Positions 9,766 through 35,222 of a DNA stretch of 44,607 bases are shown one piece after another. A program made the position numbers and the translations under genes. The notes beneath the pieces are model-generated. The model saw only the letters and a list, made by a program, of their open reading frames with translations, made no database searches and was not told where the DNA came from. How positions within the stretch are numbered: position 1 is the stretch's first letter; every line of letters begins with the position of its first letter. This stretch comes from a virus: IMG/VR virus record IMGVR_UViG_3300020172_001934, positions 1 through 44,607 of that record. The stretch is one strand, 5' to 3'.

Positions 9766-9770
9766 CACTG

Positions 9771-10850: not shown

Positions 10851-10866
10851 AAGAATCTCCAAATAA

Positions 10867-19160: not shown

Positions 19161-20048
19161 TTACAACCAAAAGTTGCTGACTGTGGGGTCTGCTGTGAGC
19201 TCGTGCGGTTTGGGGTTACCATGAAATATCATTATTGAAGTTCTATGATCAATGCTAGTACCCGAATTTGGTGATAAATGTTTTCGATTGCGAAAATCCA
19301 TGCCGCCATCAAAGCATTGCCAACGCCAACTGGCCGCAGTCAGTGGAGGGAAATATCTTAGATCTCGCTCGGTCAATAACGAACTGATGTAATCCTGATC
19401 ACCGTGATGTATGCGGGCTAGATGATGAATATCTCTTTTTTGAAATTCTTCCCAAATCCAAGTGTATCGATTGGTGTCCCACCACATCACACTGGAGTTT
19501 ATTCCACTGTGGCTTGCTCTCCATAATTGCCTGAAGTCTTTGGGTGCCCAGAAGTATCTTGTTGACTGGGCTGGTATCCAATCTATATTTTTAACGATTA
19601 CTGTGTCAAGATCAAAATACAACAATGGTCCAGCATGGTGTGCAGGATTGAATATTTGCATTTTGTACCACCAGCCTTTTCTTGGTCCAAAAATATTGGG
19701 CCAATCTACTAGACAATGCTTTATCATTGAATCAGGTACTGATCTTGACTCTTCGGTGTAAACGTGAAATCTCACATTGTGCGATAGATTTCTTGTGACC
19801 ATACTGTACAGACGTTCAACATAGTCCCAACTGTAAGTCGTGCCGTGTATCAAACAAGCAACATCAATGTCACCACTCACTGGTGGAGGCAATGCTGGTT
19901 CTCTATCTATGATTTTTTCCTGTCGTGCTTGTACTTTGGCCAGCCGACGTTGTGCTTTGTGTTCGGCTTGATTGAGTCTATCAAGTTCATATTGTCTTGC
20001 TGCATTTTCTGCAATGCGCCGTTGGCGTTTGGCGTTTTTATCAGCCAT
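19161..20048 (-). CDS. GT-A glycosyltransferase with basic coiled-coil N-terminus
   Basis: A 295-residue protein. Residues about 1-48 are Arg/Lys/Gln/Ala-rich and probably coiled coil, followed by a Pro-rich hinge. The catalytic domain begins DVACLIHGTTYSW and has LLYFDLDTVIVKNI (DxD metal site), HHGDQDYISSLL and IMIFHGNPKPHE, a set typical of GT8-like transferases that act from a nucleotide sugar. The charged N-terminal extension is unusual for the family and could anchor the enzyme to a partner. It is last in a two-gene minus-strand unit (8-base overlap) pointing away from the plus-strand glycan operon. Confidence 0.8.
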   Translation of the reverse strand: MADKNAKRQRRIAENAARQYELDRLNQAEHKAQRRLAKVQARQEKIIDREPALPPPVSGDIDVACLIHGTTYSWDYVERLYSMVTRNLSHNVRFHVYTEESRSVPDSMIKHCLVDWPNIFGPRKGWWYKMQIFNPAHHAGPLLYFDLDTVIVKNIDWIPAQSTRYFWAPKDFRQLWRASHSGINSSVMWWDTNRYTWIWEEFQKRDIHHLARIHHGDQDYISSLLTERDLRYFPPLTAASWRWQCFDGGMDFRNRKHLSPNSGTSIDHRTSIMIFHGNPKPHELTADPTVSNFWL

Positions 20049-20886
20049 GTAATGCCTTTTCTATTCGTGGTACCCATTGTCCTGAAGCCAATTCAGGAAC
20101 TGTGTATTCAGTATGAGCGATCTCAACTAACCATTGTTGACGATCAACTGTGTATGCATCTTCTAATTTATCTAAACTTACAGACACTGGTGCTGCTAAA
20201 CTAGTGGCATCAACTATGGGTCTAGTTCCTGCTAGTGCTGCCTGTGTCCCGGGTCCGGAGTTGTGATTGACCACTGCATGGTATGCTAGATCCATATCAA
20301 AACTATCATAGGTATTGGGCAATTTTTGTGGTACTTGAATTGTAACTCCAGGCCATCGGCCTGTGACTGCACTGCGTGGGTGCGGACGAACAACGATAGG
20401 ACGATTGGTATGCTGTCTTACTTCTCTGATACGGGAGTCAATCCAGGCTTCTTGTGTAGGCCAGTTAGCCATTTGCAAACTCTGTGCATGTTGACTGCAT
20501 ATCAACACAGCCGACGATGTGGGCACAGTGTCCTGAAGTTTGATGCCTAGCTGTGCAGGTCTATTGTAATCTAAATTTTCCTGATGTCCATAATAGCCCT
20601 GCGCAGTGATGTGATTTACTGCCACCTTCCAGGTGTGTCCACGATGCAGTGCGCCAATATCAACAACAATCACAGGCTTGCCGGCGCGGCGATAATGCTC
20701 GTAAATTATCTGGTTGGCTCGCATTCGCCCTGCCCATAACACTGACCAAATTACTGCAGCATCAGCGTCCATTACACCCGGGCGAGCTTCAATACCGTGA
20801 CGCAGCGCACCAGCCAACAAGGCCTGCATGGGTTCCTTGGCGTTTAAAGCACAGCTATTTTGAAACCAGGCTAGAGTACGTACCAC
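20041..20886 (-). CDS. Capsule-type (KpsC/KpsS-like) glycosyltransferase
   Basis: A 281-residue GT-B-like protein with features of the capsule polysaccharide transferase group. It has an N-terminal VIWSVLWAGRM and KPVIVVDIGALHRG, then RPIVVRPHPRS and VVNHNSGPGTQAALAGTRPIVD, where a Ser-Gly-Pro-Gly loop precedes the donor-site helix. The C-terminus (RQQWLVEIAHTEYTVPELASG) is shared with proteins at 21716, 30412 and 31304. The start is GTG at 20886 with AGGGA six bases upstream. It diverges from the plus-strand operon across 11 bases. Sugar specificity is unknown; KpsC/S enzymes use CMP-Kdo, which is notable beside KdsA. Confidence 0.7.
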   Translation of the reverse strand: MVRTLAWFQNSCALNAKEPMQALLAGALRHGIEARPGVMDADAAVIWSVLWAGRMRANQIIYEHYRRAGKPVIVVDIGALHRGHTWKVAVNHITAQGYYGHQENLDYNRPAQLGIKLQDTVPTSSAVLICSQHAQSLQMANWPTQEAWIDSRIREVRQHTNRPIVVRPHPRSAVTGRWPGVTIQVPQKLPNTYDSFDMDLAYHAVVNHNSGPGTQAALAGTRPIVDATSLAAPVSVSLDKLEDAYTVDRQQWLVEIAHTEYTVPELASGQWVPRIEKALHG

Positions 20887-20897
20887 TAAATATCCCT

Positions 20898-21716
20898 GTG
20901 AAATATACTATAATTACCACTTTTAACGAGGCAGGTTATAATCAATACGGTCAACGTATGATTGATACATTTGCTCAAACTTGGCCCACCACTGTGACAC
21001 TGCGAGTTTACGCCGAAGGGTGTAAGCATTTGATCACTTGCACTCAGCCCAATATTGAAGTGTATGACCTTGAAGAGTCATCACCGGGGTTGGTTCAATT
21101 CAAACAGACCTGGGCCGCAGTGCCCCGAGCCAATGGCGATGTCAGTGCAGATCCCGTGAGATCGCGACGCAAGGATGCCGGCAAAGGATTCAAATGGAAC
21201 GCTGTGCGATTCTCGCACAAAGTCTATGCTGTGTTCCATGCTGCTCAAACTGTCACTACACCTTGGTTACTTTGGATGGATGCTGATACTGTGTGCCACA
21301 GCGCGATAACTGAAGAGTTTTTGGATGCAATGTGCCAAGAGCAGCATGACCTTTGCTATCTTGGACGTCGCGGTAAGTTCAGCGAATGTGGCCTATATGC
21401 CATGCAACTGCATACCAAAGGCACCAAGCGATTCTTACGAGAATTTCAGCACATGTACGACGACGCCGAACAAGGTATTTTCTTGTTAGATGAATGGCAT
21501 GACAGTTTTGTGTTTGATGCTGTTCGGCTACGTATAGAAGGCTTGCGTCAGCGAGATTGGGCCGCAGGATTAATTACAGGTGAAGGCCATCCATTAATTA
21601 ACTCGCTCTGGGGTGCATACCTTGATCATCTCAAAGGTGATAGAAAAACCACTGGGAAGAGTTTACAAAGAGATCTCAAGGTACAACGCACAGAGAGTTA
21701 CTGGAGAGCTCAGTAG
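20898..21716 (+). CDS. GT-A glycosyltransferase
   Basis: About 272 residues, read from a GTG at 20898 that gives VKYTIITTFNEAGYN, the usual first beta-strand of GT-A folds. The open frame extends back to 20649 but that part is antisense to the N-terminus of the opposite gene. WLLWMDADTVCH is the DxD metal site, preceded by FKWNAVRFSHKVYAV and followed by FLLDEWHDSFVFD, where the catalytic Asp pair may lie. No ribosome site is present. A degenerate late box (ACTAAATA, 20885-20892) ends five bases before the GTG, so the message may be leaderless. First gene of the rightward glycan operon. Confidence 0.75.
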   Translation: MKYTIITTFNEAGYNQYGQRMIDTFAQTWPTTVTLRVYAEGCKHLITCTQPNIEVYDLEESSPGLVQFKQTWAAVPRANGDVSADPVRSRRKDAGKGFKWNAVRFSHKVYAVFHAAQTVTTPWLLWMDADTVCHSAITEEFLDAMCQEQHDLCYLGRRGKFSECGLYAMQLHTKGTKRFLREFQHMYDDAEQGIFLLDEWHDSFVFDAVRLRIEGLRQRDWAAGLITGEGHPLINSLWGAYLDHLKGDRKTTGKSLQRDLKVQRTESYWRAQ

Positions 21717-22525
21717 TGAAGAATTGGATCTATCTCAGCAAGAATGGCACAGATGAATACATTGAATTATTTGCACAGGGTGCAAAAGTTGCACCCACAC
21801 CATTAGAAACCTGGCGTTACGAAGACAGTCAATCACCATTGGTAATCCGCGGTATTCTCAAACACAAGATTATGAAGCAGTGTTGGGCAGATGGACGTAA
21901 ATTTTTGTACATGGATTCAGGATACATAGGTAATCGCCGCAATACACTTAATCCGCATGGTTTTAAAATTTGGCATAGGGTAGTACCAAACAATTTGCAG
22001 CACGATACGGTTGTGCCAAGACCTGATGATCGCTGGCGACGACTACAGCATCCCATACTACCGTTAAGACAGCGTGGCAGTAAAATTTTATTGGCAGTAC
22101 CTGATGAAAAACCATGCAAGTTTTATGACGTTGATTTAGATACGTGGGTCAGCACCACTGTTGCCTTGATCAAACAGTATACTGATCGTCCCATTGAGAT
22201 ACGTGATCGTAATCCCAACCGTCGTCAACGTTTGGTCAATGACATGGAAACAGCGTTACAAGACGACGTTTGGGCACTGGTTACATTTAATAGTATCGCC
22301 GCCACAGAAGCTGTGTTAGCCGGAGTGCCAGCATTTGTGTTGGCCCCATGTAATGCTGCTCGCCCGGTGGCCAACACTGATATATCGCTGATTGAAACGC
22401 CTTGGTTTCCAACCGAAACACAGAGGCAGGCATGGGCTAATCATCTTGCCTATGGACAATTCAACAACAAAGAACTTGCTGACGGCACAGCACATCATAT
22501 TATAAAGGAAACATTTGATGAATGA
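21716..22525 (+). CDS. Capsule-type glycosyltransferase-like protein
   Basis: A 269-residue protein starting GTG at 21716, one base into the previous stop. It aligns by eye over its whole length with the C-terminal half of the protein at 31304: VIRGILKHK against VLRGVTKRK, FLYMDSGYIGN against FYYIDTGYFGN, LVTFNSIAATEAVLAGVPAF against LVTFSSIAAVEAIMMGKPAI, and HLAYGQF against HLAYCQF. These are KpsC/KpsS-like transferase features. Here the domain is free-standing, while at 31304 it is fused behind a GT-A domain. Downstream genes overlap it. Confidence 0.7.
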   Translation: MKNWIYLSKNGTDEYIELFAQGAKVAPTPLETWRYEDSQSPLVIRGILKHKIMKQCWADGRKFLYMDSGYIGNRRNTLNPHGFKIWHRVVPNNLQHDTVVPRPDDRWRRLQHPILPLRQRGSKILLAVPDEKPCKFYDVDLDTWVSTTVALIKQYTDRPIEIRDRNPNRRQRLVNDMETALQDDVWALVTFNSIAATEAVLAGVPAFVLAPCNAARPVANTDISLIETPWFPTETQRQAWANHLAYGQFNNKELADGTAHHIIKETFDE

Positions 22526-23168
22526 ATTTATGGGCTGGTGGTTCCCCAATGGCGAAACACACTTCCAAAAGATGCTTAACAAGAGCGTCACAAAAGGTGG
22601 GCCCGCACGTTATCAGTATCAAGTACGGGATCGTAGTCTGACCTATGTTAAAAATTTTAGAGTAGCTTTAGACATTGGTGCCAACGTTGGCCTATGGAGT
22701 CGTGACTTGTGTGAAAAGTTTTCATCAGTGATTGCATTTGAACCTGTGGAAATATTTCGTAATTGCTTGACGAAGAATGTCAGTAGCGCAAAGTTACACG
22801 TTGAATCAATTGCCCTAGGCGATCAAGCCACCACTGCTCGTATGAACATTACCATGGACAACATGGGACACACTCACATTGATCCCAACAGTCTAGGTAA
22901 TGGTGACACTGAGGTACGTAGGCTTGACGATTACAATTATGAAAACATTGATTACATTAAAATGGATTGTGAAGGATTTGAGTACCGTATCATACAAGGT
23001 GCCAAAGAAACAATTCAGAGATGTCGCCCTGTTGTGGTCGTAGAACAAAAACCTCACGATGCCTACAGCAATCAGTATGGCCAACACGCTGCTATTGGAC
23101 TGCTGCAGGAATGGGGAATGGTACGATTAGATCAAGTCAAAGATGACTGGATCATGGGCTGGAATTAA
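22518..23168 (+). CDS. FkbM-family methyltransferase
   Basis: A SAM-dependent methyltransferase of 216 residues with VALDIGANVGLWS (SAM loop), VIAFEPVEIFRNCL (acidic ribose-binding position) and YIKMDCEGFEYRIIQGA, the signature of the FkbM family of sugar and antibiotic O-methyltransferases. The ATG at 22518 follows AAAGGA by eight bases; the TTG at 22515 is less likely. It overlaps the previous gene by eight bases. In this setting methylation of a glycan hydroxyl is the best guess. Confidence 0.88.
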   Translation: MNEFMGWWFPNGETHFQKMLNKSVTKGGPARYQYQVRDRSLTYVKNFRVALDIGANVGLWSRDLCEKFSSVIAFEPVEIFRNCLTKNVSSAKLHVESIALGDQATTARMNITMDNMGHTHIDPNSLGNGDTEVRRLDDYNYENIDYIKMDCEGFEYRIIQGAKETIQRCRPVVVVEQKPHDAYSNQYGQHAAIGLLQEWGMVRLDQVKDDWIMGWN

Positions 23169-23178
23169 GGACACCTCA

Positions 23179-23280
23179 ATGCAATGGTTAGCTGACATAT
23201 TTTATAGAATCAAGATGATGTATGAGTTTAGACGCAGACTCAAACAGACACGAGAAGAAGATCCTTATATCTACAAATGA
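23179..23280 (+). CDS. 33-residue conserved-type small protein
   Basis: A short gene with good translation signals: AAGGA ten bases before the ATG, and a stop overlapping the next start as ATGA. The product begins MQWLADIFYRIKMMYEF, then RRRLKQTREEDPYIYK, an amphipathic aromatic helix followed by a basic segment. I recall similar tiny proteins ending DPFIYK or DPYIYK in marine T4-like phages. The amphipathic start could bind membrane or a partner. Function unknown. Confidence 0.65.
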   Translation: MQWLADIFYRIKMMYEFRRRLKQTREEDPYIYK

Positions 23281-23819
23281 CCCACGACCACATACGACAA
23301 GATATCTTAGATTGGGTAATTGGATACATTGAAGTTGATCATAAGTTCTATGATTATAAATTTCCACCGTGTCCCTATGCTCGCGCAGCTAGACTAAAAG
23401 GTTTGCTGGATATACAAGTGTATGAATCAGGCTCTGCAACTAATTTTGTAGAATCAAATGTACAACAAGTCATTGACACAACCTACACTGTGCGAGTGCT
23501 AGTGATGCCGCCAAGATTTAAATATAATTGGTTTTTGAAACACTATATGAAACAACTTAATTCAAGAGTAGTTGCCAATGACTTATACTGTCAATTTGGA
23601 ACTGCATTAAAAACACACAGTCAGTATCCCGGACTGTTTAATCAAGGACCTTATTGTATAGTGATAATCAACAAGCTCAGTGATATACTTGACGGCCATC
23701 GTGCGTTGCTCAAAACAGATTATTATAAACCTTGGGCACAGCATCACTATCAAGCAGTGGTTGAACGTAGACAACACACCCTTGACAATTACAACAAAGT
23801 TAAAAATGATAACAGCTGA
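23277..23819 (+). CDS. Conserved-type phage protein with CPYARAARL motif
   Basis: A 180-residue protein. Near the N-terminus, FPPCPYARAARLKGLLDIQVY is the most distinctive part and resembles uncharacterised marine phage proteins with a PxCPYA motif. The central strand TVRVLVMPPRF and a basic C-terminus (VVERRQHTLDNYNKVK) follow. No catalytic triad is evident; the Pro-Cys-Pro loop could be redox or metal related but a lone Cys does not settle it. It is bound to the tiny upstream gene by ATGA and to the methyltransferase downstream by a 14-base overlap. Confidence 0.65.
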   Translation: MTHDHIRQDILDWVIGYIEVDHKFYDYKFPPCPYARAARLKGLLDIQVYESGSATNFVESNVQQVIDTTYTVRVLVMPPRFKYNWFLKHYMKQLNSRVVANDLYCQFGTALKTHSQYPGLFNQGPYCIVIINKLSDILDGHRALLKTDYYKPWAQHHYQAVVERRQHTLDNYNKVKNDNS

Positions 23820-24438
23820 AAACTATAACATTGAATTGTTTCACAATGCCACGGTGATTGACCGAGGCAGTCGCAACAAACAAAAGTTTCATTTACTCCG
23901 GTCTGCCATTGGTGCAGTGCAAACTGCCGGACTGAACTGTGAGTTTGGAGTACACGAAGGATTCACTATCAATCGTATTGCCCAATATGTTGGTGACGAA
24001 ACTGTGTTTGGGTTTGATAGTTTTGAAGGATTGCCTGAAACTTGGAGCCTAACCAATCACAAGACACTGGAACAAGGACATTTTGCTGTTGAAACCTTAC
24101 CTGAAGTCGCTCCCAATGTTCAATTGGTCCGGGGTTGGTTTGATGCAAGTATTCCCAAGTGGCAAGAGGAACACACTGATACTGTAAAGTTCATTCACAT
24201 TGACTGTGATTTGTATTCCAGTGCCAAGACTGTGCTGTCATTGTTAAACAAACAAATTGTACCTGGTACTGTGATTGTGTTTGATGAATTCTACTACTGG
24301 GCAAGGCCAACAGAGTATACCAACTGGGCTGAACACGAATATTTGGCTCTCAAAGAATGGATCATAGAAAACAATCGAGAGATTGAAATACTGTTTAGAA
24401 ACAATTACTTTCAGTGCGCTATAAGGATCGTCAAATGA
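23806..24438 (+). CDS. TylF/macrocin-type O-methyltransferase
   Basis: About 210 residues from the ATG at 23806 (MITAENYNIEL), since the longer frame lies inside the preceding gene. The SAM-binding part reads CEFGVHEGFTINRIA and VFGFDSFEGLPETW, and FIHIDCDLYSSAKTVL plus VIVFDEFYYW give the Asp residues that bind the metal in TylF/NovP-like sugar O-methyltransferases. It would methylate a deoxy-sugar or other hydroxyl acceptor. A four-base ATGA overlap joins it to the glycosyltransferase downstream. Confidence 0.85.
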   Translation: MITAENYNIELFHNATVIDRGSRNKQKFHLLRSAIGAVQTAGLNCEFGVHEGFTINRIAQYVGDETVFGFDSFEGLPETWSLTNHKTLEQGHFAVETLPEVAPNVQLVRGWFDASIPKWQEEHTDTVKFIHIDCDLYSSAKTVLSLLNKQIVPGTVIVFDEFYYWARPTEYTNWAEHEYLALKEWIIENNREIEILFRNNYFQCAIRIVK

Positions 24439-25379
24439 AGATTGTATTTTTTAGTGGTAGATTCAAAAACAAACGTGCCAGCCATAGACTACGAGGCGAA
24501 CTTATGGCCAACACATTGGCCAACATGGGCTACAATGCCACCTGTGGGCGCAGTCTTGAGGGAGTTGATGCCACAACCACTGTGGTATTCTTAAAAAACT
24601 CGCAGCCCACAGACATACTTGAAGCCAAACGTCTTGGAGCGCATACCATTTATGATCTCTGTGATAACAAGTTTGATGAAAAAGAAGAATACGAACCTTG
24701 CTGTGCTGCAGCCGATGCCATAACAGTCAACAGCGAACAAATGGGCATTAGTGTTCGTCAAACCACTGGACGCAATAGTACAGTGATTCCAGATCCAGCA
24801 GAACGTCCGGTATTGGCACCTTGTTTTGCGCCCAACAGTGACATAAAATTGTTGTGGTTTGGCAGCAGTGCCAGCTTAAAGTTTGTGCCCTGGGTGGAAC
24901 TTTGGCAGCAACTTGAATCACAAATTAAAAATTATCAATTCACCATGGTCACTGCCAAAGCTGATCGACTAAAAAACAAAATGATAGAGCGTCAACGTCG
25001 TGGTGTTTTTTCAGGTGTGAATTTTGATAGATTGCATTTTGTAGAGTGGGACTGGGAGTTGCAAGGGCAACTGTTGGCCAGCACAGACATTGTGTTTATT
25101 CCAGTGATACATACTAATTATAGAACTGATACCAAAAGCGCCAATCGTCTCATTGATGGATTAATGAGTGGTCGATTTGTAGTGACAACGCCGCTGGCCA
25201 GTTATGTGGAATTTGAAGCGTGGACCTGGCAACAGCAAGATCTAATGTTAGGAATTCGTTGGGCACGAGAACATCCGGGCAAAACACTGGCAAAGATTCA
25301 AGCCGGACAACAACACACTATTGAAAATTATAGTCCTGTAGCAATAGCACAACGATGGTTAGGAGTTATGCGTGGGTAG
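24435..25379 (+). CDS. GT-B glycosyltransferase
   Basis: A protein of 314 residues with a GT4-like Rossmann pair. The start, MKIVFFSGRFKNKRASHRLR, is typical of GT-B folds. HTIYDLCDNKFD and AITVNSEQMG lie in the acceptor half. IKLLWFGSSASLKFV opens the donor half, and TDIVFIPVIHT then KSANRLIDGLMSGRFVV form the nucleotide-sugar site. The ATG at 24435 makes an ATGA overlap with the TylF-type gene. Acceptor unknown; the operon context indicates an oligosaccharide. Confidence 0.82.
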   Translation: MKIVFFSGRFKNKRASHRLRGELMANTLANMGYNATCGRSLEGVDATTTVVFLKNSQPTDILEAKRLGAHTIYDLCDNKFDEKEEYEPCCAAADAITVNSEQMGISVRQTTGRNSTVIPDPAERPVLAPCFAPNSDIKLLWFGSSASLKFVPWVELWQQLESQIKNYQFTMVTAKADRLKNKMIERQRRGVFSGVNFDRLHFVEWDWELQGQLLASTDIVFIPVIHTNYRTDTKSANRLIDGLMSGRFVVTTPLASYVEFEAWTWQQQDLMLGIRWAREHPGKTLAKIQAGQQHTIENYSPVAIAQRWLGVMRG

Positions 25380-25965
25380 CCCAAATGATTTGCATTATAT
25401 CAAAGCAGTTTGTCCTGAAGTAACAGGCGCCATATTAGAAATTGGTGCCAGAGAAAATGCCACTGGGTTTCGTGGTTACTTTGCTGCCAATGCCGCAGAA
25501 TATGTTGGCACTGATTTAGTGCCTGGCAACGATGTTGATGTAGTGTGCGATTTAACTGCGCCAGAAAATCCGTTGCCTAAAAATCATTTTGATCTTGTGA
25601 TTTGTTGCAGTGTAATGGAACATGTACCAAACCCTTGGGTCATGGCAGAAAAACTTGCTGAGGTGGTCAAGCCTGGAGGCAAACTCTATATCTGTGTGCC
25701 TTGGGCCTGGCGTTACCATGCCTATCCAGATGACTATTATCGTTTTAGTTTTAGGGCTATAGAATATCTATTTCCTGACTTTGAATGGGATCGCTATGCG
25801 TACTCAACTGAAAATGACGGAGACATTCGTTGGATACATAAAAACGAAGTAGGTAGAGACAACAAGTGGTTGTACATTGAACGAGATGATCAAGGTCAGG
25901 TAATTAAAAAGTATGTGCCTTATCTGTTGATTAATTTAATAGGAACTAAGAAAAATGTTAGCTGA
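25372..25965 (+). CDS. Class I SAM methyltransferase
   Basis: A 197-residue methyltransferase with AILEIGARENATGF (a variant SAM loop lacking the usual GxGxG), YVGTDLVPG (acidic ribose site), FDLVICCSVMEHVPNPW and VVKPGGKLYICVPW. The C-terminal part with DYYRFSFRAIEYLF resembles the methyltransferase-11 group found in polysaccharide clusters. It starts at GTG 25372, eight bases before the previous stop. Acceptor unknown. Confidence 0.82.
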   Translation: MGSPNDLHYIKAVCPEVTGAILEIGARENATGFRGYFAANAAEYVGTDLVPGNDVDVVCDLTAPENPLPKNHFDLVICCSVMEHVPNPWVMAEKLAEVVKPGGKLYICVPWAWRYHAYPDDYYRFSFRAIEYLFPDFEWDRYAYSTENDGDIRWIHKNEVGRDNKWLYIERDDQGQVIKKYVPYLLINLIGTKKNVS

Positions 25966-26512
25966 TGTAGTAACAACTGTTAAATCTTCTGGGCAAGCAG
26001 TTCGCTTACACCTTGGCTGTGGCACGGTAAAACTCGCAGGATGGATCAACGTAGATGGCGAGTACATGCAGCATGATCCAGATGTTGTGATCCAAGATAT
26101 CACCAAGACATTTGCACTGGCAGACAACACCGTAGATGAAATACTCACTGTACATGTAGTGGAGCATCTCAGTCGGCAGTATGTGATGCCCATGTTTCGT
26201 GAGTTTTATAGAATATGTCGTCCTGGAGGATCTGTTGCCATGGAATGGCCGGACCTACTAAAAATGTGCCAGGAAGTGGTAAAATATCCTGATTGCTTTT
26301 GGACCACTGACAAGCGGCTGACCAAACGCACAGTGTCTGGGATCTACGGTGATTCGGCACGTTATCCTGATCCCACAATGCTACACAAATGGGGATACAG
26401 CGCCGAATCAATGTGTCGCATGTTTCAAGAAGCAGGTTTTTCTCGCACAGAGATACAACCTAACCAATACGGTAAAAGCGGCATTGACTCAAGAGTGGTG
26501 GCAACAAAATAA
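25955..26512 (+). CDS. Class I SAM methyltransferase
   Basis: A 185-residue methyltransferase with RLHLGCGTVKLAGWINVD (SAM loop and Asp) and VDEILTVHVVEHLS, then FYRICRPGGSVAMEWPD. It belongs to the same broad class as its neighbour but is not a close copy, so the two probably act at different positions or on different substrates. It overlaps the upstream gene by 11 bases and the kinase by one (TAATG), indicating tight translational coupling. Confidence 0.84.
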   Translation: MLADVVTTVKSSGQAVRLHLGCGTVKLAGWINVDGEYMQHDPDVVIQDITKTFALADNTVDEILTVHVVEHLSRQYVMPMFREFYRICRPGGSVAMEWPDLLKMCQEVVKYPDCFWTTDKRLTKRTVSGIYGDSARYPDPTMLHKWGYSAESMCRMFQEAGFSRTEIQPNQYGKSGIDSRVVATK

Positions 26513-28277: not shown

Positions 28278-29131
28278 TAGCAGTATTTTACACAGGCGAT
28301 GTTCGTCACAATCAAAACATAGCCACAGCTAACCACAAACTATTGATTGATCGGTTGCGTGAGTTAGGTGAAGTCAACGTATATAGATTTACTAGAGATG
28401 ACCCTGATCGTGGTGAATGTCCGTATGATCCTCCACTGGATATTGATGACCCGGATGTTGTATATCGTCGAGGACAGGGCGGAGCTGTACAAGTCTGGGA
28501 TTTTATGCGCGGAGTTCAACGTACTCAAGAACCCATTGTGATTAGATTGAGAACTGATCTATGGTTTACTCCCTCTAGCATAGAGGTTGTTGTTGACGAA
28601 GTCCGAGCATTGATAGACAATGATTACGGTATTGCATACTTTGGTAGTGATTGGGTCAACGATACTATTGGGGCAGAAAATTTGAAATTAAATGTTGACA
28701 TCAACTATGATCCGCATGTACAAGATTTTGTTGTAGCAGCTCGCAGGGATAGTTTAAAAAGTTTTGAAGATGTAGTGAAAAAGCTAGACGAAATTAATCC
28801 CAACAAACGTCGCAGCGGCAATAAAACGTTTAGATTCATTGTGCCTTATAAACAAATTGGTAAAAATGCCCAGGAGCAGACCGTCAAGACTTATAGAATA
28901 CTGTGCCAAGTCTATCTGATACGGCAAGATTACCGTGAGTACCCCGACGATACACTAGTATGTCGCGATTACATACAGAGTTATATTGTAGATGACAAAG
29001 CCAAACTAGGAAAGAAAAATTTAACAATTCCGCATCCCATGCAGGATGCTGCAAACTGGTGGCGAGCGCAACAGGGATGGGAACCCAAAGATATTAAAAT
29101 TAAACAATGGTGGGATTGGCAAACATTATGA
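28274..29131 (+). CDS. RTD-motif glycosyltransferase-like protein, copy 1
   Basis: A 285-residue protein starting GTG at 28274 (GTGA overlap). VFYTGDVRHNQNIATANH opens it, then VQVWDFMRG, IVIRLRTDLWF (a candidate DxD-equivalent), IAYFGSD and VQDFVVAARR. The pattern resembles LPS-synthesis proteins of the WavE type, in which an Arg-x-Asp motif sits after a beta-strand. The next gene is a shorter paralogue with the same motifs in the same order. A long insert (about residues 165-240) is found only here. Acceptor and donor are unknown. Confidence 0.65.
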   Translation: MIAVFYTGDVRHNQNIATANHKLLIDRLRELGEVNVYRFTRDDPDRGECPYDPPLDIDDPDVVYRRGQGGAVQVWDFMRGVQRTQEPIVIRLRTDLWFTPSSIEVVVDEVRALIDNDYGIAYFGSDWVNDTIGAENLKLNVDINYDPHVQDFVVAARRDSLKSFEDVVKKLDEINPNKRRSGNKTFRFIVPYKQIGKNAQEQTVKTYRILCQVYLIRQDYREYPDDTLVCRDYIQSYIVDDKAKLGKKNLTIPHPMQDAANWWRAQQGWEPKDIKIKQWWDWQTL

Positions 29132-29811
29132 TAGGTATATTTTATATTGGTGAACCAAGATTCGCCGACATTGGTCGTGCCAACCATGAAAAATTATGGA
29201 ACAAATTAAGAGAGAACTGGCCCATACAAATCTATGATTACACCTGGAACCAGGCATGGCCAAGAAATTGTCCCAGTGATCTAGCTGGTGTTGTTCAAGT
29301 CTGGGATTTTTACAAAGCATTGTCACTGACGCCTGAAAAGTACATCATCAAAATGCGCACCGATGTATGGTTAAGCGACGCTGCAGTTGATGTTATTTTC
29401 AAAGAACTTTCAATAATTGTCAATGATGAAAATGATCTCGCATACATTGGTATGGAGTTGGTCACAGACTTTGGGGAAACTTATAATCGTATTCCAGCTC
29501 AAGGATTTCCCAAAGTACAAGACTTTGTAATATGTGCCAACCGAGAAAAAATACCCCCAACAGATGCACCACTGTGGGCGGGGCAAAATATCAAAAAACT
29601 CAAAAGTGGAAATAGAACTTTTAGATTGTTGATGTTACCTGACACTCGTGCTTACACAGTGCGAACTCATATGCCATTGATAAGGAACAATTATCAACAT
29701 CCTGATGAATGGCAAATTACCTATGACTTTGTATCACAGTACCATAAAGTCACTGCAGCAGTGGCCTGGTGGGCCTTAAAAAATCCAAAAAATGCCCAGC
29801 GAATATTATAA
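29128..29811 (+). CDS. RTD-motif glycosyltransferase-like protein, copy 2
   Basis: About 227 residues from the ATG at 29128 (ATGA overlap), paralogous to the gene just upstream: IFYIGEPRFADIGRANHEKL, VVQVWDFYKAL, YIIKMRTDVWLSD, LAYIGMEL and VQDFVICANREK align one by one with copy 1, and both end in a WW-containing segment. A tandem duplication followed by divergence explains the pair, which may add two successive sugars. The start at 29107 would extend into the previous gene and is not preferred. Confidence 0.68.
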   Translation: MIGIFYIGEPRFADIGRANHEKLWNKLRENWPIQIYDYTWNQAWPRNCPSDLAGVVQVWDFYKALSLTPEKYIIKMRTDVWLSDAAVDVIFKELSIIVNDENDLAYIGMELVTDFGETYNRIPAQGFPKVQDFVICANREKIPPTDAPLWAGQNIKKLKSGNRTFRLLMLPDTRAYTVRTHMPLIRNNYQHPDEWQITYDFVSQYHKVTAAVAWWALKNPKNAQRIL

Positions 29812-30418
29812 TACAAGTATTGAACAAGGCAAAAGTTATCAGCTTCTCAAAAAAGGGTGGGGAGGCAATGACAGCAAAAAATATGCCTTGCACATTGCCG
29901 ATCTAGTTGCTAAGTATCAAGCTCAAACCATGCTTGATTATGGCAGCGGCCGTGGTGATCAGTATACTATTCCAGTAACGTGGCCAACACCTGAATTCAA
30001 TGTGTTTACTGATGCGATGACATTAGATCAGCGCATTGGTATTGAATCTTATTTCATGTACGATCCTTGTGTGCCCGGGATTGATCAGCTGCCTGCGCCA
30101 GGATCAAAGTTTGATTGTGTAATTTGCACACAGGTAGTAGGCAGTATTCCTGATGATGATATGCCTTGGGTGGCGGAGTTGCTGATGAGTTATGCAACTA
30201 AATTTTGTTTTGTTGGTTTATTGGATCCTACAATACCAGTTAAAAGCAAAAAACAAGGGTTGTACGACAAACAATTTTTTTCAGCGCAACGTACACAACA
30301 ATGGTATTGGGATCAGTTCAAAGACTGGCGTGGGTCAGACTTGTATATCTATTTCAAAGGTCCTACTTCATACCAAGAAGATTGGCATGTGGACAACGCC
30401 TATCAGTTTGATTATTGA
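29792..30418 (+). CDS. SAM methyltransferase-like protein
   Basis: A 208-residue protein with MLDYGSGRGDQYTIP (SAM loop), MYDPCVPGIDQLPAP, FDCVICTQVVGSIPDDDM and FCFVGLLDP, which follow the strand order of class I methyltransferases although the motif after strand 4 is atypical. The C-terminal WYWDQFKDWRGSDLYIYF is rich in aromatic residues. It is the last gene of the rightward operon, overlaps the previous gene by 20 bases and meets a convergent gene with a seven-base overlap. No terminator hairpin is visible at the junction. Confidence 0.68.
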   Translation: MPSEYYNTSIEQGKSYQLLKKGWGGNDSKKYALHIADLVAKYQAQTMLDYGSGRGDQYTIPVTWPTPEFNVFTDAMTLDQRIGIESYFMYDPCVPGIDQLPAPGSKFDCVICTQVVGSIPDDDMPWVAELLMSYATKFCFVGLLDPTIPVKSKKQGLYDKQFFSAQRTQQWYWDQFKDWRGSDLYIYFKGPTSYQEDWHVDNAYQFDY

Positions 30419-31314
30419 ATAAACGGCAGAAACTTTTGATACACTAGGCCCTGGCGACTTTCTTCGTCGCTCCAGTGACATGCTGCCAAATCATAAATCC
30501 ACTGCTCTCTTTCAAAAAATTCTGGTTCCCTAATACGAGCGACATCATGATGAGAAACGGCCCAGCACACCGAACTCCGATCGTCAACCACCAACGGTAC
30601 TCCGGCTAAGATTGGTGCTACACCCGAACTAGAATTAAACACACAGGCCGACTGCGCATCTGACAGATCGTCATACAAGGAGCGTTGTTTGCTGGGACTG
30701 AGCATGACATTAAATTGAGACAGTTGTGATAGGTCAATATGCTTTCCAGGATGTGGTCTCACCAATATAGGTAGATCTGTTACTGCCCTAACTTCATGAA
30801 TTTTATGTTGAACCCATTCAATTGGATTCATGCCTTTCATTGACCAGCCACCATCACGCTGCATCAACAACAAAATATAGCTGCCGCGATTGCGCCAAGG
30901 TTGCATTTGTAAATTTAAATCTTGGCTAATAATATTCCAACGAGAACTATCACTGTTTTTGTTGGCGTACTCTGCAGTGTCATAAAACACACCATTGAGA
31001 CTATATCTTAGATATTTTCCATTGGGATCATGAAATTTAAACGTTGACGCATCAATGGCCATGACATGATTGTTATGGCGTTTTTGTTCTTTGACCACTG
31101 CTTGTCGTAGACGTATGTTGGGACCGTCTTGCAACGGACTAGGCCAACCCAATATCACAGACAAACGAGCTGGCTTTACGTTATAACTGGTTTCAACATG
31201 CACTGATGCACCTTGTGATCGTGCGCCATCGGCAAAGGCCTGTAAAACATCAATTTTTCTACTGGCAGTTTGCTTTTGTAGACTACTGAAATAAACTACT
31301 ACGTCATGCATCAT
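30412..31314 (-). CDS. Capsule-type glycosyltransferase-like protein
   Basis: A 300-residue member of the same group as the genes at 20041 and 21716. LSVILGWPSPLQDGPN is the N-terminal domain strand. LPILVRPHPGKH (like RPHPRS at 20041), ACVFNSSSGVAPILAGVPLVVDD and a final FEREQWIYDLAACHW complete the GT-B donor half. ATG codons at 31314 and 31311 are both possible. It overlaps the two-domain transferase upstream by 11 bases, so the two are made together. Donor sugar unknown; the KpsC/KpsS resemblance hints at Kdo or a related acid sugar. Confidence 0.7.
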   Translation of the reverse strand: MMHDVVVYFSSLQKQTASRKIDVLQAFADGARSQGASVHVETSYNVKPARLSVILGWPSPLQDGPNIRLRQAVVKEQKRHNNHVMAIDASTFKFHDPNGKYLRYSLNGVFYDTAEYANKNSDSSRWNIISQDLNLQMQPWRNRGSYILLLMQRDGGWSMKGMNPIEWVQHKIHEVRAVTDLPILVRPHPGKHIDLSQLSQFNVMLSPSKQRSLYDDLSDAQSACVFNSSSGVAPILAGVPLVVDDRSSVCWAVSHHDVARIREPEFFEREQWIYDLAACHWSDEESRQGLVYQKFLPFIQ

Positions 31315-32956
31315 CGTTTAATATACGCCAAGCAGTGCCATCACGCATTTCTAACTCTGTGAACTGGCAATAGGCCAAATGTGCTGCCCACTCTTCAACT
31401 TCGTCTAATGTAGGGATATGCGGATTTTCAATGTCCTTGAGATCACGGGATGTAATTGGATTGGCAGCACTTGGTCCCAGGGTAATTGCTGGCTTGCCCA
31501 TCATGATTGCTTCTACTGCTGCAATACTTGAAAAGGTAACCAAGCAATGAATGTTGCGTTCTAACGCCATTTCCATGGTATCCGAACTCTGACGCACCGA
31601 ACGACTTTGCTTGTTGCGTACTATGACTTCACGATCACTCCACAATCTAATAGTGGCTATGGTTTCTTCCAACCACTTGTCTAAATCAATGCCATAGCAC
31701 ATCAATAGTTTTTGGCTAGGTGGTGCCAATAAAATATTTGCACCAGGTCTAAACTTTCTTGAGGCAAATCCCGTAGCTGATAGGCGATCTCTTGAGCGGT
31801 GCTTGACTTCGCCAAGATATTGCATGTCGTTTTTTGTGATGCGGTGATAAGTTTTCTTACGTCCATTACCAAAGTATCCGGTATCAATGTAATAAAAATC
31901 TCTCCCAGCAGCGCGACAAGCATCCATGTGTTTGCGCTTGGTCACACCGCGCAATACCATGGGAGTTTTATCTTCGGCTGTTTTGTCCCAGACTGAAATT
32001 TGTCCACCGGATCCTAAAATAAAACTCTTTAGGAATGGATCATAATTTTGTCCTTTGGCTTCAAGTTTGTCACTGGCTTCTTCAACAGTGTCGGCTTCAA
32101 CGGCCACCGCAGCCTTGTTATTAAGCATGGCTAAATCCTTTATTATTTGCTCGTAATCCGACTCTGAATAGTACTGTGCCGCAGGATCTACGCGATAAGA
32201 AATTATTTTTTCAAATAACTCTATCATCTTCGGGGGAATATTTTCAAACTGATGTGGCACTGGGGGGACCTGAAGACTTTTCTGCCAACTCTGATAGGCT
32301 TCGGCGTAATGCCAGCCGTACTCGCAGTGACGATAGTTTTCAAACCAAGGGCCACCTTCGGTATAGTGAATGGCTTTGGGAGTTCCATCTTTGGGTTCTT
32401 TGTACCAGTTGACCAGCCAATTCCATTCAGGGCCAATACCACCAATTTCAAGACTGTCGGTGACCCATTCAAATCTATGTAAGTATTGTCCGGATTTTGT
32501 GTTCACTACTTCAGGTGTGAGATTCTTGCAACTGGCATGACCACAGTTAAACAGCATCATACTGCTCCAGTTTTTACGTGGATATGGGTGTTGTTCCTTA
32601 CCATCCATTTTAACTGTATTGGTAGGCTGATATTTGTGTTTGACTACTTGAACTGCAAACTTTGATTCCATGTGCTGAAACAGTTCTCGTATATCACCGG
32701 TAAACACAAAATCACAATCAACAAACACTGCCCATCCAGAGTAACCCATAAGATGAGGTACTAAGAATCTTGTAAAGGTAAATTCTGTGCTAGAAGTGGG
32801 GTCAACATCTCGCCAATAGTGTTTTTGATCACGCAGCACTGATTGCTTCAAAAACTCAACTTGCACCGGCATTGTGCTGTGTTTCAGGATACTATGGCGA
32901 CAGACTTCTGCAGCTTCTGCTTCGCGCGGATCCCATCCTATGAATACTTTAAACAT
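31304..32956 (-). CDS. Two-domain glycosyltransferase (GT8-like + capsule-type)
   Basis: A 550-residue fusion. Residues about 1-230 are a GT-A domain starting FKVFIGWDPREAEAAEV, with WAVFVDCDFVFTGDI (DxD) and IHYTEGGPWFENY near its end. A linker with a predicted helix follows (about 250-300). Residues about 310-550 match the free-standing protein at 21716 throughout (see that entry). The two halves could add two different sugars in sequence, as in dual-domain capsule polymerases. A GATAAATA late-type box lies 34 bases upstream of the ATG. It is the promoter-proximal gene of this minus-strand pair. Confidence 0.78.
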   Translation of the reverse strand: MFKVFIGWDPREAEAAEVCRHSILKHSTMPVQVEFLKQSVLRDQKHYWRDVDPTSSTEFTFTRFLVPHLMGYSGWAVFVDCDFVFTGDIRELFQHMESKFAVQVVKHKYQPTNTVKMDGKEQHPYPRKNWSSMMLFNCGHASCKNLTPEVVNTKSGQYLHRFEWVTDSLEIGGIGPEWNWLVNWYKEPKDGTPKAIHYTEGGPWFENYRHCEYGWHYAEAYQSWQKSLQVPPVPHQFENIPPKMIELFEKIISYRVDPAAQYYSESDYEQIIKDLAMLNNKAAVAVEADTVEEASDKLEAKGQNYDPFLKSFILGSGGQISVWDKTAEDKTPMVLRGVTKRKHMDACRAAGRDFYYIDTGYFGNGRKKTYHRITKNDMQYLGEVKHRSRDRLSATGFASRKFRPGANILLAPPSQKLLMCYGIDLDKWLEETIATIRLWSDREVIVRNKQSRSVRQSSDTMEMALERNIHCLVTFSSIAAVEAIMMGKPAITLGPSAANPITSRDLKDIENPHIPTLDEVEEWAAHLAYCQFTELEMRDGTAWRILNDDA

Positions 32957-32990
32957 TGATTTTTCTCTCTACCCCATTGGTTGTATAGGA

Positions 32991-32998
32991 TATTTATC
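32991..32998 (-). promoter_or_regulatory. Late-type promoter box GATAAATA
   Basis: A NATAAATA match on the minus strand in a 61-base gap, 34 bases before the ATG of the two-domain glycosyltransferase. If used, glycan genes here would be late-expressed, in step with virion genes. Confidence 0.5.
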
Positions 32999-33017
32999 TG
33001 CGTATATTACAGCAGAT

Positions 33018-33848
33018 TTAGATTTTGAGTAAATCTTCTATACTGTATAAAGTTGGAAGATAATCTGACGGCTCGTCCAGTACACTGCGTTCTAGATCTC
33101 CAGCCCTGCGAGGACCAAAACTAATATCAAAGTCAACATCATTTACTTGCTTGAATAATTCAACCATTTTGAGCACAGAACTGCCATGGCCATGGCCAAG
33201 ATTCTCAGTACAATTAGCCGGATGCTCTATGGCCTTTATCAAGGCCTGGCAAATTTCATTGACATGTACATAGTCTCTGACGGCAGTGCCATCGGCGGTG
33301 TTGTAGTCATTACCAAAAATAGTAAATTTACCGGTCTTGGGAGCCCTTATTAGATTCAGCATCAGTCCATCAGGATTAGTGGGTGCTATTCCATCACTGC
33401 CTATTACATTGTAAAATCTAAATATAGTGTGGGGGATTGATTCTTCTTGGCAGCACTGATACACTACCTGTTCGGCTGCACGTTTGCTAATACCATAAGG
33501 GCTGGCACACCCCACTGCTGCTCCGGTGCTGGCAAAGATAAAATTTTTATATTTTATTTTACTCAACACATTTTCAGTGCCTGTAATATTGGTACGATAA
33601 TAACTGATTGGATCACGCACACTTTCACCAACATTAACCAACGCAGCCAAATGTATCACTGTATCAAACTCTACAAAATCAATCCTGGGTATAGTTCTAA
33701 TGTCGGCATTTAGGTGATCATAAACTTCAACTTGTGGTGTGTTGTAGTCAAGACCCCAAACCTGATATTTTTTATTTTGCCGAAGTATGTTGGTCAGGTG
33801 ACTGCCAATATACCCAGCATTGCCAGTGACCAATACTTTTTTACTCAT
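33018..33848 (-). CDS. NAD-dependent sugar epimerase, GalE-like
   Basis: About 276 residues from the ATG at 33848, where the Rossmann fold starts directly (KVLVTGNAGYIGSHL, GxxGxxG). VIHLAALVNVGESVRDP, FASTGAAVGCASPYGISKRAA (Thr/Ser with the Tyr-x3-Lys pair) and VRDYVHVNEICQALIKAI are typical of extended short-chain dehydrogenases that epimerise UDP-sugars. It is shorter than E. coli GalE (338). It overlaps the cupin gene by eight bases. It probably supplies UDP-galactose or a related sugar for the island. Confidence 0.85.
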   Translation of the reverse strand: MSKKVLVTGNAGYIGSHLTNILRQNKKYQVWGLDYNTPQVEVYDHLNADIRTIPRIDFVEFDTVIHLAALVNVGESVRDPISYYRTNITGTENVLSKIKYKNFIFASTGAAVGCASPYGISKRAAEQVVYQCCQEESIPHTIFRFYNVIGSDGIAPTNPDGLMLNLIRAPKTGKFTIFGNDYNTADGTAVRDYVHVNEICQALIKAIEHPANCTENLGHGHGSSVLKMVELFKQVNDVDFDISFGPRRAGDLERSVLDEPSDYLPTLYSIEDLLKI

Positions 33849-34191
33849 CCTTGGCAAATCCCACTGTTTCTCTTTCAATGTCGGTGTGATCAAATTCTGC
33901 CCAGTATAACTCGAAGGCCACAGTGTCTTCCAGGGCTTCAAATTGATGATACTCACCTGGTGCAACCTTGGTATAATCTCCGGCGTTTAAAATAGTTTCA
34001 TCAACTAAATCATAGTTGTTTTTCCAAACACGAATCAACAGTTGACCTTGTTGAACGAAGAATCCATTCCACTTGTATTTGTGTTTGTGTTTGCTACAAA
34101 CACCACCTTTGATAGCTTCAATACGATGAAATTCCAAAACACCGTTGGCTTCAAGAAGTTCAGTAACTCCCCAGACTTTTCCTGCTTTCAT
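33841..34191 (-). CDS. Cupin-fold protein, sugar-isomerase-like
   Basis: A 116-residue single cupin. CSKHKHKYKWNGFFVQQGQLLI holds the two metal-binding His of motif 1 and VAPGEYHQFEAL gives the motif 2 His. Such small cupins resemble the C-terminal domain of mannose-6-phosphate isomerase/GDP-mannose pyrophosphorylase and sugar epimerases. Next to GalE it most likely acts on a sugar phosphate or nucleotide sugar. A standalone binding or regulatory role is possible. Confidence 0.75.
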   Translation of the reverse strand: MKAGKVWGVTELLEANGVLEFHRIEAIKGGVCSKHKHKYKWNGFFVQQGQLLIRVWKNNYDLVDETILNAGDYTKVAPGEYHQFEALEDTVAFELYWAEFDHTDIERETVGFAKDE

Positions 34192-35222
34192 AGTTGTCCT
34201 TTCAACTGTAATCTTTTGAGACCTTGATCAAAATCTGCAATCGTGCGTCTCCGGCATCGATTCAGTACAACATCATTTTCAACAAATCTTGGCATAAGTG
34301 TTTGATGTGCTTGTTGTATTCCAGTGCTTTGAATATGCTGAACTAAATCTTTTGCAGCGTTCAAACACTGGGATATTCTAACATCATAATCATCAATTAA
34401 ATCGTAACTATGATCTACCCAGTCATCAAATACATCAAACCCTAACTCACGAACTCGTTGCACTGTCCCTGGAACCGCAACCCACACAGGTAGTTGATGC
34501 CAGGCAAATGCCTTGAAAGTTTTTTCAGTTATAAACTGAGAGGCATATCCTACATCAGCATTATTATAAATTTGATCGCTGGTTTCTGCTACCAAATTGA
34601 CCAAACACTCAAAAGCTCTGGGGTCTGACATGAGATGATACGCATCTCCATTGTTTGTATTTCCGTCAAGCAAAATTGGTAAGTCAACGTTGGCAATATC
34701 ATCAAAATACGGGGATGGTATTGCCGAGCCATATGATAGCACATAATCTTCAGGATTAAAAGTATTAAGAATGTACTTACATATTTGACTACGGGTTGCA
34801 GTGGGTCTGCGCATTAGACACAATAAGATGTGTGTGCGATCTAATCCATTCCAATCAATCTTTTGATTGCGTACATGATCCAAGAAGCCACAGTGGTTTA
34901 CCATTCTTGCAGGTAGACTCACTGTGCTGTGATCATTGCAATCAAATACATTATTGATCCAACCGCAATGTTTTGAGTACCAATAATATTCGGCAAGATT
35001 CTGTTGAGCCAGATCGTAATCATCGCGATTATGCCCTTCATACATGCTGTCAAACAATAGTATCTGACCCTGGATCAGTGATTCAATGCCAGGATCTTGT
35101 CTGACCTGTGTGCCAATATCTTCAGCCAACTCATTGTTTTTGAGTTGTTGCCGATTATATCGCCTAAGATTAATCCAAACGAAACTATCATCAATCTTAA
35201 AGATTGGATCAGACGGCAACAT
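34188..35222 (-). CDS. Unknown protein of a glycosyltransferase-like phage family
   Basis: A 344-residue protein. The N-terminal half has short motifs SFVWINLRRYNR and ILLFDSMYEGHN. The middle reads THILLCLMRRPTATRSQI and EDYVLSYGS. The C-terminal half has QFITEKTFKAFAWHQLPVWV, then VRELGFDVFDDWVDHSYD. The same Glu-Lys-x2-Lys, Pro, Leu-Gly-Phe order appears in the gene at 11788, marking two divergent family members. I associate such C-termini with uncharacterised proteins in phage sugar clusters. It overlaps the cupin gene (ATGA) and the UvsY-like gene (14 bases), joining the glycan and recombination groups. Confidence 0.6.
   Translation of the reverse strand: MLPSDPIFKIDDSFVWINLRRYNRQQLKNNELAEDIGTQVRQDPGIESLIQGQILLFDSMYEGHNRDDYDLAQQNLAEYYWYSKHCGWINNVFDCNDHSTVSLPARMVNHCGFLDHVRNQKIDWNGLDRTHILLCLMRRPTATRSQICKYILNTFNPEDYVLSYGSAIPSPYFDDIANVDLPILLDGNTNNGDAYHLMSDPRAFECLVNLVAETSDQIYNNADVGYASQFITEKTFKAFAWHQLPVWVAVPGTVQRVRELGFDVFDDWVDHSYDLIDDYDVRISQCLNAAKDLVQHIQSTGIQQAHQTLMPRFVENDVVLNRCRRRTIADFDQGLKRLQLKGQL

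Follow-up and report, generated by a model that had tools for sequence, protein, structure and literature searches.

The window analysed here, a 44,607-nucleotide stretch of DNA from a T4-like uncultivated phage, carries a block of sugar-chain-building genes between gp44 and uvsX, with open reading frames at the coordinates given below. The original prediction had placed a 16-kb glycan island amid core T4-like genes at 19161-35222, and the flanks bore this out. On one side lie UvsW (16244-17704) and a gp44-like clamp-loader AAA ATPase (17824..18846, minus strand; Pfam AAA, conserved position), and on the other n21 (35209..35661, minus strand), a small conserved gene adjoining uvsX that marks the island edge, and UvsX (35905-36963). 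We refer to I01, I02, I03, I04, I05, I16 and I17 as the kernel of the island and to I08-I15 as a swappable cassette.

Domain, profile and fold searches confirmed most of the transferases. The predicted count of at least nine glycosyltransferase-like proteins was about right: eight are supported (nine domains) with I08 as a weak addition, while I20 found no support. I01 (19161..20048, minus strand) is a GT8-like (GT-A) glycosyltransferase with an invariant DLD that matched a PHROG glycosyltransferase (7e-22) and, as its best PDB profile match, a GT8 enzyme (E 0.016); GT8 was detected in 3 of 18 relatives, and the gene was present in 14/14 spanning islands. I03 (20898..21716, plus strand) is a GT2 glycosyltransferase over the cut-off of Pfam PF00535, its start being corrected from 20649 to near 20898 (GTG) on the basis of ortholog lengths. 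I17 (31304..32956, minus strand) is a fusion of an N-terminal GT8 half, over the Pfam cut-off, with an I04-like KpsC-fold C-terminal half, and in many relatives the two halves are encoded by separate genes. I14 (29107..29811, plus strand) is a GT-A-fold transferase whose AF2 model (pLDDT 92.4) matched GT-A enzymes in Foldseek, including the PBCV-1 capsid glycosyltransferase. Its paralogue I13 (28274..29131, plus strand; 27% to I14) gave no match in Pfam, NCBIfam and PHROG scans and was assigned to GT-A from the family fold. I08 (24414..25379, plus strand), kept with I09-I15, may be a GT-B (GT4-like) glycosyltransferase, with a weak Glyco_trans_1_2 match (E 0.026; 0.0064 in one relative). The variable gene I20 (34188..35222, minus strand) resembles a glycosyltransferase by eye alone, from a TEKTxKxFA block in the alignment; Pfam, NCBIfam, PHROG and further family searches gave no match.

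The other predicted activities were also recovered. The five methyltransferases, all on the plus strand, are the kernel protein I05 (22515..23168; FkbM-type, over Pfam and NCBIfam cut-offs), I07 (23797..24438; TylF-like, with an approximate start in an open reading frame from 23680) and the SAM methyltransferases I09 (25372..25965) and I10 (25955..26512), these three over Pfam cut-offs, together with the methyltransferase-like I15 (29792..30418), found by PHROG (3e-7) and sub-threshold in Pfam. I06 (23277..23819, plus strand), which few relatives have, matched PHROG 28122 (unknown). The GalE-like NAD-dependent sugar epimerase/dehydratase I18 (33018..33851, minus strand) exceeded the Pfam Epimerase cut-off and was sub-threshold for the galE model (168.6 of 262.3). 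Its start was revised to near 33851, and its open reading frame is overlapped by that of the cupin I19 (33841..34191, minus strand; over the Pfam Cupin_2 cut-off, WbuC weak). The small-molecule kinase is I11 (26512..27264, plus strand), an APH/choline-kinase-fold protein over the Pfam APH cut-off with its catalytic residues, HGD...N and ID...D, invariant across 16 relatives. Always adjoining it is the nucleotidyltransferase-HAD phosphatase fusion I12 (27255..28277, plus strand; profile match 4evw, 2.2e-7), with conserved DxDGT and GxSxR..PK motifs. Heptose activation uses a kinase, a HAD phosphatase and a nucleotidyltransferase, e.g. HddA, GmhB and HddC, three activities that I11 and I12 match in logic. 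The phage pair differs in that its kinase has the APH fold, its nucleotidyltransferase and HAD parts are fused and no isomerase was identified. A pattern scan covering 84,980 bacterial and archaeal species yielded no I12 relative, though its pre-filter could miss distant ones. The pair, phage-only in this survey, points to an unfamiliar activated building block.

We then compared the site among 16 relatives' contigs that were retrieved by uvsX and that all spanned it. Six had no kernel and ten carried an island of 8-14 kb, in nine of which I01, I02, I16 and I17 occurred together. The genes were thus not scattered but present or absent as a whole block, with the kernel at a fixed site from n21 to gp44. 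The gene order was common to dozens of contigs and dN/dS was about 0.02-0.16 for each island gene, indicating purifying selection throughout; given both, the island is a syntenic block beyond chance. The cultivated Pelagibacter phage Mosig carries the greater part of the kernel, with I01, I03, I05, the N-terminal half of I17 and two KpsC-fold genes in one cluster. This cluster, the block-wise presence or absence, the I17 fusion and the purifying selection led us to treat the island as one functional unit.

Identities inside the island were mosaic, I09 being 66% identical to its counterpart in the relative L199 and the adjoining genes 91-92%. Separate auxiliary genes gained independently at an insertion hotspot, with kdsA merely supporting host LPS synthesis, could leave such a mosaic and could explain why kdsA is confined to a sub-clade. 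We regard this as quite unlikely given the shared block and gene order, the I17 fusion, the adjacency of I11 and I12 also in unrelated phages and the position of kdsA within the kernel in a second phage group.

The original prediction, sound on the transferases and the block, had overlooked both KdsA and the relationship of I02, I04, I16 and the C-terminal half of I17 (I17C). These four form one paralogous family, whose predicted fold is that of the retaining beta-Kdo transferases KpsC, WbbB and KrkA. For I16 (30412..31314, minus strand), the AF2 model (pLDDT 95.3) retrieved beta-Kdo transferases at all of ranks 1-25 in a Foldseek search of the PDB (best 6mgd, E 2.6e-8), with modest TM-scores to the crystal structures (0.39-0.57). 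In an independent profile-profile comparison with bacterial KpsC modules, the combined family profile (A1) matched at p 2.3e-5, both the Q and the HP motif aligning in register, against 0.67 for a GT-A control. An I16-only profile (A11) performed weakly (6.6% probability, p 0.0055), so the profile evidence for KpsC likeness is that of A1. Searched against the PDB, the family sequence profile reached WbbB at E 0.17, a lead only. Direct Pfam, NCBIfam and PHROG scans of I02 and I16 gave no match, and Pfam Capsule_synth was not detected in the proteins of this family.

Of the I16 and I02 sequences, 29/29 kept (K/R)xHP, the motif that binds CMP, together with the Gln of QxxxD, while the nucleophilic Asp of QxxxD was Gly or Ser in all I16 and I02 sequences of A1. 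In the window, the kernel proteins I02 (20041..20886, minus strand) and I16 retain RPHP and have QxxxS and QRDGG, respectively, in place of QxxxD, and both motifs are lost from I04 (21716..22525, plus strand; 38.7% to I17C) and I17C. A simple motif scan of the Asp position in 298 family proteins from the retrieved loci counted S 84, G 62 and D 3, and a phage podovirus relative (L372) retained both QxxxD and RPHP. The family thus shares with KpsC (GT107), the WbbB N-domain (GT99) and KrkA (GT140) the overall fold and, in I02 and I16, the CMP-binding motif and the Gln, but not the Asp, which each of the three characterised enzymes requires (PMC9587256, PMC10148158, PMC12887879). With the Asp absent, membership of GT99, GT107 or GT140 was rejected for I02, I04, I16 and I17C. 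As the nucleophile is Gly or Ser, the known covalent double-displacement route is closed to I02 and I16, and Kdo transfer by known chemistry is, judging from their sequences, excluded for these copies. They may instead be virus-expanded CMP-ulosonic-acid transferases that kept the CMP site, dropped the nucleophile and adopted a chemistry new to the fold (e.g. inverting) to make a methylated, phage-specific Kdo-type glycan of the virion tail, although we consider this full combination unlikely. With the Asp gone from almost every phage copy and retained in a few phage relatives, the family offers a natural experiment on the mechanism and evolution of retaining Kdo transferases.

KdsA, the 3-deoxy-8-phosphooctulonate (Kdo-8-P) synthase, is encoded outside 19161-35222 (15414..16253, minus strand). 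Against equivalog models it scored 381 bits for NCBIfam NF003543 (cut-off 242) and 354 for TIGR01362 (cut-off 314), the catalytic motifs KANR, KKGQF, DxTHSVQ, ETHExP and PSDGPNM were conserved in the phage copies, and kdsA dN/dS was 0.05-0.09; the phage KdsA is predicted to be an intact enzyme. In the second phage group (L180, L185, L190-L193), kdsA is flanked by an I17-like gene and an I16 gene, and I02 comes next. In unrelated phages, an I01-like gene directly follows kdsA, and by eye L137 and L169 have tail-like genes and then kdsA with an I01-like gene. The intact KdsA and these neighbourhoods link the island to Kdo, a sugar of the bacterial outer membrane, and KdsA together with the KpsC/WbbB fold of four proteins gives it a chemical direction, towards Kdo or another CMP-linked ulosonic acid. 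Such a direction is recognisable here, whereas glycosyltransferase clusters in phages are as a rule recorded as 'LPS genes' without an explanation.

Among the 20 records of the first search, many of them fragments, kdsA occurred in one, itself retrieved by I12, and it was absent from 9/9 I12-bearing relatives whose contig includes uvsW. Because the gene is this rare, a phage-borne Kdo supply would be optional at best. CMP-Kdo synthetase (PF02348), by which we judged whether the phages encode a complete Kdo pathway, was found neither in the window nor in seven island-clade relatives, records that may be fragments. An inference of the host from kdsA was dropped: the nearest bacterial copies, from a sample biased by the search patterns used, were 59% alphaproteobacterial, yet the phage copies mostly grouped among themselves.

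In both the window and Mosig, the island genes sit amid replication genes, not late genes. Phage glycosyltransferases often act on DNA, and with this location one might suppose that, as in T4, modified bases receive sugars from the transferases, methylated sugars shielding the genome. Hydroxymethyl bases require a thymidylate-synthase-family gene. PF00303 was absent from the window and seven relatives, including records of 156, 152 and 182 kb, and most of the island enzymes belong to types known from surface-glycan synthesis; T4-type DNA glycosylation is thus disfavoured and DNA hypermodification very improbable. The T4 late promoter TATAAATA occurred once, matching chance, and gives no evidence on timing.

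The predicted absence of a flippase held: Wzx-type PF01943 was absent from the window and the seven relatives, and scans of the island proteins for membrane segments gave none that was convincing. A Wzx/Wzy capsule or O-antigen cluster was rejected on these two results. Bacteria attach LPS core sugars at the cytoplasmic face, and host MsbA then exports them, so a missing flippase does not argue against a host lipid-linked acceptor. The phage might therefore remodel the host surface, extending or capping LPS core or capsule early on the cytoplasmic face for export by MsbA and so blocking superinfection or concealing receptors from sister phages. KdsA, the KpsC fold, GT8 and FkbM are typical LPS and capsule enzyme types, the genes lie amid replication genes and the LPS core route requires no flippase. 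The island, however, has neither a membrane protein nor a lipid-carrier enzyme, and Caulobacter jumbo phages carry a mini version of it beside tail and lysis genes, an odd place for an early role. In CcrColossus, a tail gene and the lysis cassette enclose gp126-gp129, which encode a sialyltransferase-like protein, two KpsC-fold proteins and a GT8. In favour of host remodelling, O-chain modification has been inferred for pelagimyophages with GT8-rich glycosyltransferase sets (PMC7029224). On balance we hold host remodelling to be a plausible but doubtful account.

The island probably decorates the virus particle or the host surface. We favour, still tentatively, a soluble assembly line that makes a methylated glycan, probably with an ulosonic acid in it, and has the virion tail or fibre or the host LPS core as acceptor; the product may be the predicted 'custom decorated oligosaccharide'. 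In such a line, the kernel would build a short oligosaccharide, to which the cassette I08-I15 would add residues and methyl groups. KdsA, in the window phage and near relatives, would raise the Kdo-8-P pool, which host KdsC and KdsB could convert to CMP-Kdo. I02 and I16 would bind a CMP-linked ulosonic acid, presumably Kdo or similar, via (K/R)xHP and transfer it, acting by a mechanism other than double displacement or on another sugar. From their domains, I11 would phosphorylate and I12 activate and dephosphorylate a second building block, the GT8, GT2 and GT-A enzymes would extend the chain and the five methyltransferases would cap or decorate it, in a presumed order. The glycan would be placed on a cytoplasmic acceptor, for which a virion tail or fibre protein seems slightly likelier than the host LPS core. 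The tail link comes from CcrColossus gp126-gp129 and the kdsA genes of L137 and L169, which adjoin tail or tail-like genes, and is weakened by the position amid replication genes in the window and Mosig.

Among published systems, the hypervariable-region clusters of pelagimyophages and cyanomyophages resemble the island as GT8-rich sets of T4-like aquatic phages (PMC7029224). The island differs in its fixed-site, all-or-none kernel, KpsC-fold paralogues, kdsA and kinase/nucleotidyltransferase-HAD pair, features that our literature search did not find described. Soluble glycosyltransferases of mycobacteriophages, as cited within PMC12619734, possibly act on virion proteins; the island, with a putative acceptor, encodes many more enzymes, among them methyltransferases and those of precursor synthesis. 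A marine viral genome with Gmd, WcaG, ManC, NeuA, KdsA and WaaG shares the theme of kdsA among LPS and capsule genes, with a different gene set and, in the passage concerned, no mention of a KpsC-fold family or a syntenic kernel (PMC5332604). Besides uncultivated T4-like phages, the kernel occurs in Caulobacter jumbo phages and in a Pelagibacter phage in culture, so that its product and acceptor can be tested in laboratory strains.

Besides kdsA, a second gene outside 19161-35222 probably shares the theme of the island. This hypervariable gene (11788..12936, minus strand), for which a family search gave no match, is by eye alone a possible outlying transferase; it is 53-59% identical to its relatives, the core neighbours of which are mostly 90-99% identical.

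Family searches against Pfam, NCBIfam and PHROGs bore out the enzyme types that the original prediction had named in the island between gp44 and uvsX (19161-35222; genes I01 to I20 in order), namely five methyltransferases (I15 being sub-threshold in Pfam), a small-molecule kinase (I11, an APH kinase), an epimerase (I18) and a cupin (I19). I12 is a nucleotidyltransferase joined to a HAD phosphatase; its motifs were invariant across eleven relatives and its profile matched a solved pyrophosphorylase at 2.2e-7. I03 and the N-terminal half of I17 were assigned by the same databases to GT2 and GT8, respectively, I01 was GT8-like, I08 gave a weak match only and I20 no family, while database family searches returned no match for I13 and I14. 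An AF2 model of I14 (39 sequences, pLDDT 92.4) matched GT-A enzymes, the PBCV-1 capsid glycosyltransferase among them. Flippase-dependent export was not encoded in the window or in seven relatives. Our results concern enzyme types, fold, motifs, synteny and selection, and we infer that the island encodes soluble enzymes that together assemble a methylated glycan, of which an ulosonic acid is probably part.

I02, I04, I16 and the C-terminal half of I17 were paralogues. A search of all solved structures with an I16 model from AF2 (34 sequences, pLDDT 95.3) placed entries of the retaining beta-Kdo transferases KpsC, WbbB and KrkA at ranks 1-25, with modest TM-scores of 0.39-0.57. As an independent check, the family was compared profile to profile with bacterial KpsC modules from alphaproteobacterial genomes, giving a p of 2.3e-5 against 0.67 for a GT-A control; a profile of I16 alone gave a weaker result (p 0.0055). 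Among viral predicted structures, the best matches included Tetraselmis virus 1 proteins named 'capsule' and an entry from Caulobacter phage CcrColossus. At least four proteins of Tetraselmis virus 1, a giant virus that infects a green alga, have this KpsC-like fold (BFVD matches A0A2P0VP54, A0A2P0VNK4, A0A2P0VP74 and A0A2P0VP72); the thecae of Tetraselmis contain abundant Kdo and methylated Kdo.

Characterised retaining beta-Kdo transferases share QxxxD, the Asp of which is the site of the covalent Kdo adduct, and a CMP-binding (K/R)xHP, from which KrkA departs at the first residue only (PMC12887879, PMC9587256, PMC10148158). The Gln and the HP motif were kept in all 29 I16 and I02 sequences but, unlike in the characterised enzymes, the Asp was replaced by Gly or Ser; I04 and the I17 C-half had lost both motifs. 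A simple motif scan of the 298 family proteins in all fetched loci, in which the pattern misplaced a minority of assignments, gave Ser in 84, Gly in 62 and Asp in three, the last in podovirus MW202713 and the uvsX-set loci L064 and L067. The family is thus related to the Kdo transferases, but by their catalytic motifs the window's own copies do not belong among the characterised retaining beta-Kdo transferases. Aquatic T4-like phages with glycosyltransferase sets (PMC7029224) and a viral kdsA (PMC5332604) are already known; a non-exhaustive search of the open-access literature found no description of the nucleophile-less family, the fixed kernel (I01-I05, I16 and I17) or the I11-I12 pair.

A kdsA gene encoding Kdo-8-P synthase was located outside the island (15414-16253), scored over the equivalog cut-off and kept all catalytic motifs. 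CMP-Kdo synthetase was not found in the window or seven relatives, and host enzymes would have to supply the remaining Kdo-pathway steps. In a second phage group (L180, L185, L190-L193), kdsA lay between I17-like and I16 genes with I02 near, and the KpsC-fold copies likewise had no Asp; in unrelated phages, kdsA was followed by an I01-like gene. Most phage kdsA clustered separately from the sampled bacterial copies. Counting against Kdo supply by the phage, kdsA occurred in just one of the 20 records searched first, itself fetched by I12, and in none of nine relatives bearing I12 and uvsW. By eye, four loci of unrelated phages (L137, L169, L182 and L187) carried, at around 7-11.5 kb in the locus, consecutive tail-like, GNGxSR (sialyltransferase-like), QueD-like, kdsA and I01-like genes, in that order, possibly a separate tail-decoration cassette.

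Relatives were fetched by UvsX, blind to island content. Twenty unique contigs, 16 via UvsX and four via I12, spanned gp44 to n21, a small conserved gene beside uvsX. Six of the 16 had no kernel (0.2-2.8 kb) and ten carried an island of 8-14 kb, with I01 in all ten and I02, I16 and I17 in nine; the kernel was present in all four I12-fetched contigs. The cassette I08-I15 kept its order in ~50 contigs (not dereplicated), I11 immediately preceded I12 in every case where the contig extended that far, unrelated phages included, and I17 was split into two genes in many relatives. All island genes were under purifying selection (dN/dS about 0.02-0.16). Single genes have been exchanged, as in I09, which was 66% identical to L199 amid neighbours at 91-92%, and 97% identical to L203. 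By eye, another phage group (L255-L257) joins I11-I14 and a KpsC-fold/GT8-like set to genes resembling those of aminotransferases, oxidoreductases and formyltransferases, which suggests a more elaborate form of the pathway involving amino sugars.

T4-like core genes of the 44,607-base IMG/VR virus record include gp41, gp61, UvsW, gp44, UvsX, gp32 and terminase; the closest deposited phages reached just 55% in the terminase comparison, and megablast of 15000-36000 gave no match. In Pelagibacter phage Mosig, a single cluster adjoining replication genes comprised I01, I03, two I05, the I17 N-half and two KpsC-fold genes, together with one gene of sulfotransferase type. Placement of the island among replication genes in T4-like phages, along with a published inference (PMC7029224), argues for host LPS as the acceptor of the glycan, but the Caulobacter phage CcrColossus, in which two KpsC-fold genes, accompanied by one sialyltransferase-like and one GT8 gene, are flanked by a giant tail gene on one side and the lysis cassette on the other, favours virion tails. 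We tentatively rank the virion slightly ahead of host LPS; DNA modification by the island enzymes is disfavoured, as the window and seven relatives contained no gene of the thymidylate synthase family.

Elsewhere in the window, 14031-14912, with a P-loop and a sulfotransferase-like start by eye, and 11788-12936 were 49% and 57% identical to L120 beside core genes at 94-99%, and look like swapped cassettes. Between gp61 and gp41 lay a radical-SAM protein with a B12-binding domain (6205-8097), a 48% homologue of which adjoins an I11-I12 pair in an unrelated phage (L253). At 9076-10862, inside the replication region, an SGNH-hydrolase-like gene (by eye) lies beside a tail-like gene that weakly matches BppU_N. 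An ORF running against the direction of its neighbours (3399-4193) was pyridoxal-phosphate-enzyme-like by eye, with no Pfam match and a 38% homologue in L172.
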